This document shows positions 16,146-23,691 of a DNA stretch of 64,000 bases, piece by piece (within the stretch, counting starts at the first letter, position 1; every line of letters starts with the position of its first letter). Both the position numbers and the translations under genes were made by a program. A model generated the notes under the pieces. The model worked only from the letters and a program-made list of their open reading frames with translations. It was not told the origin of the DNA and searched no databases. This DNA is from Brachyhypopomus gauderio (lineage: Eukaryota; Chordata; Actinopteri; Gymnotiformes; Hypopomidae): assembly GCF_052324685.1 (NCBI RefSeq), contig NC_135218.1, positions 10,531,516-10,595,515 on the forward strand, read 5' to 3'.

Positions 16146-16394
16146 TGTCCGCACTAATGGCTGCTTCCCCATTTAAGGTCTTTCACAGCCAACAATAATG
16201 AAAGTGTTATAATTTTTAAATCTAAATGAAGCATTACGTAATGTGAGTTCATTCTTCAACTTAGGCAGCACATATAATGCAGACTTTAATGTATTAAATG
16301 AAACATCGACACATTTGATGTATTAAATTTAACAGATTAGTGTATGGTTGATGTATTTAATGTATTGACTCAGCCTCACGTGCTCTTATACAAA

Positions 16395-16488
16395 CACACA
16401 CACACACACACACACACACACACACACACACACACACACACACACACACACACACACACACACACACACACACACACACACACACACC
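16395..16488. repeat. (CA)n microsatellite
   Basis: Nearly pure CA repeat just downstream (in minus sense) of the basic cytoplasmic exon of the left Ig gene. It corresponds to the GT tract at 23265 in the right arm. Confidence 0.97.
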
Positions 16489-16498
16489 CTGTGTTTAC

Positions 16499-21307: not shown

Positions 21308-21354
21308 CCAATCAAAATAACGTATTTTTTTCCTCTGGTTATTTATATATATAG
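21308..21354 (+). promoter_or_regulatory. Candidate promoter, right Ig gene
   Basis: CCAAT at 21308-21312 and a TATA-like tatatata at 21344-21351, about 260 bp before the ATG at 21611. The arrangement is mirrored in the left arm. ETS-type AGGAAGT words follow (near 21522). The position is inferred from conservation between the arms only. Confidence 0.4.
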
Positions 21355-21610
21355 TTTTAGCCGAATCCTGTACAATGCAATAGCTTTACAGATGTGAAAC
21401 TAGATTCTTTTCTTGACGTTTGTATTGTTCACTTCCTGAGTGAGAATCAGTGATTACATAAAAGTTTCATGATTCTGTCAGTTTTACTGTTTAGACCTTT
21501 ATATCATCATCACATTTATTCAGGAAGTAAGAATGCACATTCTAGTGAGTTAAACAACGATTGCTGTTTCATCCATGTCTCCCTTTTTCAGGCAGGCACA
21601 GACATCCAAA

Positions 21611-23691
21611 ATGTGGAAATATTTGCTTCTGCTGCTGCTTCATTTTCATACAGGTAAGATTTTTAAATTCACTTTTCTCACTTTCTTGAGAATTCTGAAT
21701 TAAAACATTAGTAGATATTGGAGTAAACAACCATGATCATATACAGTAGGCAACCATGATCATATACAACGATTCTTAACCAAATCGCTATACAAGTGCT
21801 CTAAACAACAAAGCTCTTTAACCATTTCTACTGTCAACTGTTCTAACAAATAATGTAATTACATATTTACACAGAGTGTCACTCATTCACATTACAATCA
21901 ATTACTCCACAAATCAACTGAATGAACAACATTTATTCAGTTTTTGCATTTGGACAAGGCTTCAGATGAGGCTTGTCTGAGATCAGCTAGTAGAATTTTC
22001 AAACTTTCAATTTGTTGCAAGGAGAAGACTGGCTTGTCCCCAAATACAGAGCACTCCACTAATCAAGAGGAGATTAACTAAAAGCATGAATCACTATTTC
22101 AACAACATATGGAGCAAGAAGTTATTGCATTCTTATGATTATTCTGATCTCAAGACATTTGGTATGTTGTCTGATTTATGTTGTGAGAGAGGCCATGTTT
22201 CTTAAAATGCCCTTTGTAGTTTTGGATGGTCCAAACAGAATGATGGTGCTCAGTTTTGGTCTCATTAGGTTAACACTATAGCAGTCATTACAATCAGAGC
22301 AGAGTTTAATCCCAATGGTCACTGTAGCAAAAGTGAAGTATACAAATATTTTGCATATGTTTGTATATAAAGGTTGCATAAGTTTAAGTAACAATATGGT
22401 AATTTTATTTATTTGTTCTGTTTTCATCTCTTAGGCTTCCAAATGTCACAAATACATGAAGTCATTCCAGTAAAAGAGCCAGCCATTTTCTATTGCTATG
22501 ACACTGACTTACAGGTTAAAAACAAAACAATCACCTGGACTGGACCTCATGGGCCTATAAATGAGAATAATGCAGATTACCACAGCAGAAGAGTACAGAT
22601 AAAAAAATACAGGACTCTAGTAGTAAAGGAAGTGACTACAGATGATCAGGGAGAATACAGTTGTGAGGTGGATTCTAAAACACACAAAAAATTCAGACTT
22701 ACTGTTCAAGGTATAGCATTTTTGGACATTTAGCAATGCCACATGTTTTGTAAAACAGATATGTCATGTAGTTTCATGGTATGTAAGAGACATAGGAGGA
22801 TGTAAAAAATTCAATATGTTTTTATTCCATAAATCCAAACATGCAATAAAAAAATATACTACATCAGATTATTATTCAGGAAAACACTATACAAACATCT
22901 TATATATTTTTGTTTTCAATGTAATGTCTTTTAATAAGCATTCATGTGAATCACATTACTATTAACAGATCGACCTTTGAAACCAGTTCTCAAATATCTT
23001 GCCATTTTCTTCGTAACTGTGGGAGTATCTGTTGTAGCCTGCTGGATATACAAAGGTACAAACACACATGAAACAATGATTGACACATGGATGTTTTAAT
23101 ATTTATGAATAATGAACTGCTTGGAATCACCGATCCCACAAGTCTTGGCTGTTGGTCACATGCACTGTTGCCTGATCAATGTTTAGGGTGTAAGAGAAGA
23201 AGGATGAAAGGTGAGGAGGACAGAACAGGAGGGCAACATGAGCAACATGATCAGGTAAACACAGGGTGTGTGTGTGTGTGTGTGTGTGTGTGTGTGTGTG
23301 TGTGTGTGTGAGTGTGTGTGTGTGTGTGTGTGAGTGTTTGTGTGTGTGTGTGTGTGTGTGTGTGTGTGTGTGTGGGGGGGGGGGGGGGGGGTCTGTGTGT
23401 GTGAGTGTGTGTGAGTCAATACATTAAATACATCAATCATACACTAATCTGTTAAATTAAATACATCAAATGTGTATCAAATGTGTCGATGTTTCCTTTA
23501 AAAAATATCATCTGGATTTACTTCATGCTGAATCGTTATTTGCATTTCTACTTGTTTTCCCTTTTTCCATTTTTTAGAATGCTGGGTCACTGATATACTT
23601 AACTATAATGCATGATAAGCAGCCTGGGACAGTGCACATACCGTTATACTCCTATGACAAAACAGAGTACTCAGTACTGTCACTTAAATGA
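21611..23691 (+). CDS. Single-Ig membrane receptor with ITIM-like tail
   Basis: Five exons give 195 residues: 21611-21653 (signal peptide), 22435-22710 (one Ig domain of 92 codons), 22969-23055 (transmembrane), 23187-23254 (basic juxtamembrane CKRRRMKGEEDRTGG) and 23578-23691 (tail and stop). All introns are GT-AG; phases are 1,1,1,0. The Ig domain keeps Cys, Trp (ITWTG) and the GEYSC cysteine, plus an NKT glycosylation site. The membrane segment is KYLAIFFVTVGVSVVACW, without charge. The tail has LIYLTI, which fits the ITIM pattern, and TEYSVL, close to an ITSM/ITIM. Such motifs recruit SH2-domain phosphatases in known inhibitory receptors; here the role is inferred. The start ATG opens the hydrophobic leader. 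It lies head-to-head with its left-arm paralogue. I cannot assign it to a named fish receptor family. Confidence 0.85.
23265..23415. repeat. (GT)n microsatellite with an 18-G run
   Basis: GT repeat with a pure G run at 23374-23391. It lies in the intron before the tyrosine-motif exon. Confidence 0.96.

Follow-up and report, generated by a model that had tools for sequence, protein, structure and literature searches.

In primates, the genes SIGLEC11 and SIGLEC16 lie head to head at a distance of about 9 kb, with one member bearing ITIMs and the other signalling through an ITAM adaptor, and the likeness of their ectodomain exons is kept by gene conversion (PMC5701461, in excerpt). In fish, the NITRs comprise ITIM receptors plus a few activating members that lack ITIMs and have a charged transmembrane residue, such as NITR9 with an Arg (PMC2442602, in excerpt). 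NILTs contain a single Ig exon or two, with phase-1 introns and a last intron of phase 0, followed by an ITIM exon in phase 0 (PMC3022915, in excerpt). The catfish LITRs are a further teleost family, having ITIM forms and an adaptor-dependent form with a transmembrane Lys (PMC4810170, in excerpt), and their domains are of FcR-like or KIR-like subtypes (PMC2413239, in excerpt). Many paired receptors occur in large scrambled clusters, in which it is difficult to reconstruct what happened in which order.

Here we describe two neighbouring Ig receptor genes of Brachyhypopomus gauderio. The window, which is the whole stretch of 64,000 nucleotides analysed (G000:C8:10531516-10595515), was examined together with the 796.5 Mb genome of 840 contigs. 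By analogy, the layout of the pair matches the logic of SIGLEC11/SIGLEC16 and of the NITRs, NILTs and LITRs: the genes are head-to-head neighbours with similar ectodomains and an ITIM in one member, and the other member lacks an ITIM as far as its poly(A) signal and has a charged residue at the membrane edge. An earlier note on this DNA had likened the layout to that of known activating partners, and the precedents of SIGLEC11/SIGLEC16 (PMC5701461) and the NITRs (PMC2442602) bear this out as far as the excerpted texts go.

Comparison with known receptor families

The likeness to each family is partial. By description, Siglecs bind sialic acid and combine V-set with C2-set domains, whereas the pair has only one kind of Ig domain, present once in one gene and three times in the other; unlike SIGLEC11/SIGLEC16, its two genes also differ in domain number. 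DICPs have Ig domains of types D1 and D2. The NITR hallmarks defined in the excerpt of PMC2442602, a J-like FGXG and a six-Cys I domain, are absent from the pair, and NITRs form multigene clusters whereas the pair is just two genes. In the right gene, phase-1 introns precede a phase-0 ITIM exon, as in NILTs. However, the CX3C, CX6C and CX7C motifs of the NILT definition are absent, each Ig domain having just two Cys 56 residues apart; the connecting-peptide exon of NILTs is lacking; and the last coding exon is 114 nt in the right gene versus 294-327 nt in three NILT rows (PMC3022915, in excerpt). The pair likewise lacks a second Cys pair of the CD300/pIgR type and the YWCR motif (given for CD300 in the excerpt of PMC3031540), and shows ITWTG with one Cys pair. 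The likeness to LITRs is by description. Judged by the published definitions, as excerpted, the pair would not be of NITR, NILT or CD300 type. Among the titles and abstract openings listed in searches of the open-licence literature, none reported such a pair, and it possibly belongs to an undescribed receptor family.

Structure of the two genes

Two head-to-head paralogous genes, as the earlier note had claimed for this region, lie with open frames inside inverted-repeat arms; both were rebuilt from splice sites and all their exons are intact. The gene bodies of the two arms are 93-100% alike. There are 90 inverted-repeat pairs in the window, and the longest 25 are 93-98% complementary, several of these being GT-repeat matches. 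The likeness of the inverted arms is far beyond chance.

The right gene (+ strand) has five exons, all with GT-AG splice sites and intron phases 1-1-1-0, and encodes 195 amino acids ending in NAGSLIYLTIMHDKQPGTVHIPLYSYDKTEYSVLSLK before the stop. The signal-peptide exon (21611-21653; MWKYLLLLLLHFHT) has the same start context and donor as the left gene. It is followed by a single Ig-domain exon (22435-22710, phase 1-1) with C21, W35 and C77, a transmembrane exon (22969-23055; KYLAIFFVTVGVSVVACWIY) that is charge-free inside, a basic cytoplasmic stub exon (23187-23254; CKRRRMKGEEDRTGGQHEQHDQ) and a phase-0 last exon (23578-23691) with LIYLTI and TEYSVL. The stub exon of 68 nt shifts phase 1 to phase 0, and the LIYLTI/TEYSVL frame joins only through this junction, which the earlier note had left implicit. 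In Pfam, I-set alone is above the cut-off for the right protein (25.3 bits versus 23.7), with the other Ig models below.

The left gene (- strand) has six exons and 345 open codons, all in phase. Its signal-peptide exon (19383-19341) precedes three Ig exons (18675-18397, 18050-17772 and 17417-17139), a transmembrane exon with an Arg at the outer edge (16765-16679; KYRAILFVTGGVSIVACWIY) and a basic stub exon (16566-16499), whose donor GTAAAC is kept without a partner exon. The 68-nt stub exons of the two genes are identical in DNA, and the left Ig domains are 84-86% identical to the right one. The claim of one Ig exon on the right and three on the left thus holds with all exons open, in phase and with splice sites kept. 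The left protein matches eight Ig-type Pfam models above the cut-off; a non-Ig match to Sina_TRAF (29.8 bits, cut-off 24.8) was read as repeat-driven noise.

The proximal upstream regions (right 21250-21610, + strand, with a TATA-like box at 21340; left 19384-19740, - strand) are 94.4% identical over 357 bases. Each upstream arm contains two AGGAAGT-type (ETS-like) sites and a TATA-like box, as well as an acceptor-like pyrimidine stretch with CAG directly before the ATG, hinting at an intron in the 5' UTR. Between the two genes, 19845-20032 and 20629-20817 form inverted arms of 95.8% identity, possibly a palindromic transposon at the duplication centre. A putative SINE, tRNA-derived by eye, is present in the right arm only (23930-24080, + strand); ARAGORN found no tRNA in 15000-25000.

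Loss of the tail exon in the left gene

Alignment of the arms places the best-fitting junction at right-arm 23495 to 23711, corresponding to 16300/16299 on the left, with a 6-base shift fitting equally well. The deletion junction (16293-16300, - strand) marks the absence of 215 bp equivalent to right-arm 23496-23710, including the whole tail exon, in agreement with the gap of about 23495 to about 23712 proposed earlier. Upon searching the genome with the tail-exon DNA, the left arm matched only on either side of the gap. Beyond the junction, the left 3' UTR (16125-16295, - strand; AATAAA at 16145) is homologous to right-arm 23711-23893. Because the left donor is orphaned, loss of the tail exon on the left is far likelier than its gain on the right.

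Reading through the left intron yields VNTGCVCV...LYKST and a stop, without an ITIM. Taking at least 13 pyrimidines in 20 as acceptor-like and scanning the 3' side down to 15900, we found four such sites 3' of the left stub, one (16222) before the poly(A) signal and three beyond it. Site 16222 adds one residue; site 16069, beyond the poly(A) signal, adds 18 residues with LTYFMI, an ITIM-type match. As far as the poly(A) signal, the left 3' ends contain no ITIM, and no terminal exon for the left gene was recognised, with no convincing replacement nearby. In genome searches, which score the best candidates only, a further copy of the tail exon emerged neither with protein (nine matches, five at the locus and four with E of at least 0.5) nor with DNA (three matches, all at the locus). 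A degenerate copy at 11.4-11.7 kb, suggested by a pair of weak tblastn hits with E values of 0.7 and 8.2, was rejected as chance, since the order of the two hits does not suit a gene.

Tail motifs and the membrane arginine

LIYLTI matches the ITIM pattern [SIVL]xYxx[ILV], with consistent splice sites and phase, and lies 24 residues from TEYSVL in the right tail. The strict ITSM consensus is TxYxx[V/I]. TEYSVL is TxYxxL and so no strict ITSM; the earlier note had described the two motifs as matching ITIM/ITSM-type patterns. The right tail presumably resembles those of CD33-type Siglecs. When the 60-aa right tail was shuffled, 0.4% of the products had both motifs. Among the ends of other ORFs in the window, likewise taken at 60 aa, 6 of 321 had both; the real tail falls outside this set, as its own frame is only 37 aa long. 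The motif pair alone is weaker evidence than the inverted arms, but it is suggestive, and the phase-0 exon layout and the spacing add to it.

The transmembrane spans are KYLAIFFVTVGVSVVACWIYK in the right gene and KYRAILFVTGGVSIVACWIYK in the left, and the rebuilt exons contain the contrast noted earlier between KYRAILF on the left and KYLAIFF on the right at the start of the span. The left Arg is residue 2 of the 19 that lie between the lysines, which places it at the outer membrane edge in a juxtamembrane rather than mid-span position, and it lowers the 19-residue hydropathy from 2.11 (right) to 1.50 (left). Basic residues are common at the membrane edge. The earlier note was right that the tail-less copy has an Arg at the membrane; that the Arg was gained does not follow. 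With only two genes and no outgroup copy, either Arg or Leu may be ancestral.

In the left context LKYR, the position of the Arg fits an NxxR-type transmembrane start, the Asn being absent. This N-terminal NxxR type is found in Xenopus XFL, LILRA2, PIR-A, NKp46, GPVI, OSCAR and FcalphaR, and pairing with FcR-gamma is known for all of these mammalian receptors (PMC2413239, in excerpt). Four transmembrane exons of zeta/FcR-gamma-type adaptors are above the Pfam cut-off in the genome, and all four have an acidic residue in CY[IV]LD (CYILDA, CYILDG or CYVLDV).

Divergence between the arms

In the noncoding body, 72 of 1369 positions differ between the arms (5.3%). Past the deletion, the UTR differs at 28 of 158 positions (17.7%; P=2e-7 against the noncoding body), a figure that the indel-rich alignment may inflate, and the farther flank beyond it at 15 of 162 (P=0.047). 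This patchy divergence would be compatible with gene conversion that covers the gene bodies and stops near the tail, similar to that described for the ectodomain exons of SIGLEC11/SIGLEC16 (PMC5701461, in excerpt); a firmer claim was softened, since the flank is only slightly more diverged and the UTR figure may be inflated. Divergence among the three left Ig exons is similar to that between them and the right Ig exon, from which we infer that the exon triplication and the most recent exchange between the arms are probably of similar age.

Coding substitutions (22 of 474) are as frequent as noncoding ones (72 of 1369; P=0.72) over a coding set of 474 bp that comprises signal, Ig3, transmembrane and stub exons and leaves out Ig1 and Ig2. 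dN is not below dS (20/344 nonsynonymous, 2/88 synonymous, P=0.28), and positive selection was dropped as an explanation, as 20 nonsynonymous versus 2 synonymous changes is not significant by the same test. Purifying selection has left no sign in the substitutions. After 50 substitutions without selection, the chance of meeting no stop is 0.08. The coding sequence has a single indel, in frame, versus 4.9-5.5 expected at the noncoding rate (P(≤1)=0.046-0.026), the higher expectation being based on 16 events in 1369 bp and the lower omitting two events at alignment ends.

Relatives in the genome

The Ig query yielded 42 matches at E≤10 among 52 candidates scored, with the four exons of the locus at E 1e-47 or better and the other 38 at E 0.003 and weaker. 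DNA of the Ig-transmembrane region gave five matches, all within the locus. Among the best candidates scored in the protein and DNA searches there was no close copy of the pair beyond the locus, and on these searches the pair appears to be a two-gene orphan in this genome. A scan of viral contigs with the four Ig domains of the pair returned 80 pattern-matching stretches, of which 0 were confirmed as viral relatives.

Of the 38 weak matches, 29 are on contigs C9, C27 and C50, which carry large clusters of V-set domains with a CxC motif (C50, 1.02-1.54 Mb; C27, 0.08-0.60 Mb; C9). Many of these domains show LSCSCTDL...GRVQMFNEESPGNLSLLISDLTEEDSGLYSC, and the best solved-structure match of the cluster profile is the polymeric Ig receptor. 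Apart from the pair itself, these pIgR-like clusters match the Ig query best (E 0.003 and weaker); they have CxC, whereas the pair lacks its second Cys and has Asp or His there. In hhalign, the pair scored 97.7% (2.3e-12, 82 columns) against the V-set profile, with C-Y-[CD]-T-[DQ]-L...W in register, and 96.5% (8.1e-10) against an I-set control profile of C13, while the two reference sets scored 97.0% (1.2e-10) against each other; the profiles were built from 12 of 29 listed V-set stretches and from 9 of 15 control stretches, obscurin/titin-like by eye. A link between the pair and the clusters on C9, C27 and C50 is suggested by these profiles. Filing the pair within the clusters was considered and not adopted, the hhalign preference being modest. 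The Pfam and PDB sequence searches gave generic Ig, mostly I-set neighbours (NCAM, contactin, CEACAM and titin), with Fc-gamma-RIII and CD4 among the weaker PDB matches (best 60 of 135 listed).

Proposed mechanism and alternatives

We propose, with confidence that is evenly balanced, that the locus is a recent inhibitory/activating-type pair of Ig receptors, in which the right protein would recruit SHP and the left would pair with an FcR-gamma-type adaptor. An inverted duplication has placed two copies of a predicted type I Ig-superfamily cell-surface receptor head to head, and the left copy has lost 215 bp with its only tyrosine-bearing tail exon, so that it ends in the short basic stub. The similar promoters may lead to co-expression of both genes in the same leukocytes, and the similar Ig domains may bind related ligands. 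Upon ligand binding, phosphorylation of LIYLTI and TEYSVL in the right tail might recruit an SHP-type phosphatase, resulting in inhibition. The left Arg might assemble with a dimeric FcR-gamma/zeta-type ITAM adaptor, through the Asp near the outer end of its transmembrane segment, leading to activation. The likeness of the ectodomains may be maintained in part by gene conversion from one arm to the other.

The chief rival takes the right gene for a genuine ITIM receptor and the left for a non-signalling surface or shed decoy, or for a young pseudogene left without its last exon, with the Arg incidental. Because the substitutions show no purifying selection, the coding rate being equal to the noncoding rate, a non-signalling or decaying left gene is a real possibility, which we regard as plausible though short of probable. 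The lack of a convincing replacement terminal exon nearby and the place of the Arg at the membrane edge beside a Lys, where basic residues are common, agree with it. However, 345 codons are open over six exons with all splice sites kept, and one in-frame coding indel stands against the 4.9-5.5 expected, which argue for a maintained protein. The identical DNA of the 68-nt stub points the same way, but conversion from the right gene could keep even a dead gene open.

It is improbable that both genes encode receptors for adhesion or for some other function unrelated to immune signalling, and that the tyrosine motifs are chance matches. Of the 321 other ORF ends in the window, 6 do contain such a motif pair, and the Pfam and PDB neighbours are generic Ig, mostly I-set (best 60 of 135 PDB matches listed). 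Against this reading are a phase-0 tyrosine exon that follows phase-1 Ig and transmembrane exons as in NILTs (PMC3022915, in excerpt), two motifs 24 aa apart, Ig exons duplicated in tandem, and a profile that fits pIgR-like V-set clusters somewhat better than the I-set domains of C13. That the pair is an assembly error, a single gene collapsed or wrongly assembled into an inverted copy, is hardly credible: the arms are alike and are flanked by GT repeats and transposon sequence, but they differ by 5.3% in the noncoding body and 17.7% in the 3' UTR, far above sequencing error, the numbers of Ig exons differ, and the clean deletion falls outside the GT repeat.

Carried further, the proposed inhibitory/activating-type pair would be the birth of an activating partner in an undescribed family, for which duplication in inverted orientation, loss of 215 bp and a Leu/Arg difference of a single base were enough; this broader reading is tentative, and we consider it somewhat unlikely. 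If true, a complete paired system would have arisen in a lineage that had just one inhibitory receptor, an orphan, and in this system gene conversion keeps promoter and ectodomain alike and stops at the tail. Because only two genes are involved, their differences are few and the deletion is clear, a possible conversion from inhibitory to activating type could be dissected change by change. The named fish families would also be joined by a further receptor lineage.

Other features of the window

Eight other frames of the window were put to Pfam, yielding two transglutaminase, one Tim17/Pmp24 and two reverse-transcriptase matches, and three frames without a match. LINE-like reverse-transcriptase ORFs (RVT_1) lie at 8208-9614 and 13291-14250 (+ strand). 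No Pfam match was obtained for 38364-38738 and 35223-35414, both assigned to transglutaminase by eye, or for 45091-45345, assigned as PXMP4-like by eye. The exons of the transglutaminase gene occupy 34500-41300 (- strand), with Transglut_N at 40930-41268 (54.5 bits) and Transglut_core at 39408-39578 (24.3 bits), the remaining exons being placed by eye. PXMP4-like (Pmp24) exons are located at 45091-48077 (- strand), where 46668-47030 matches the Tim17 family with 45 bits in Pfam and is read as PXMP4 by eye.
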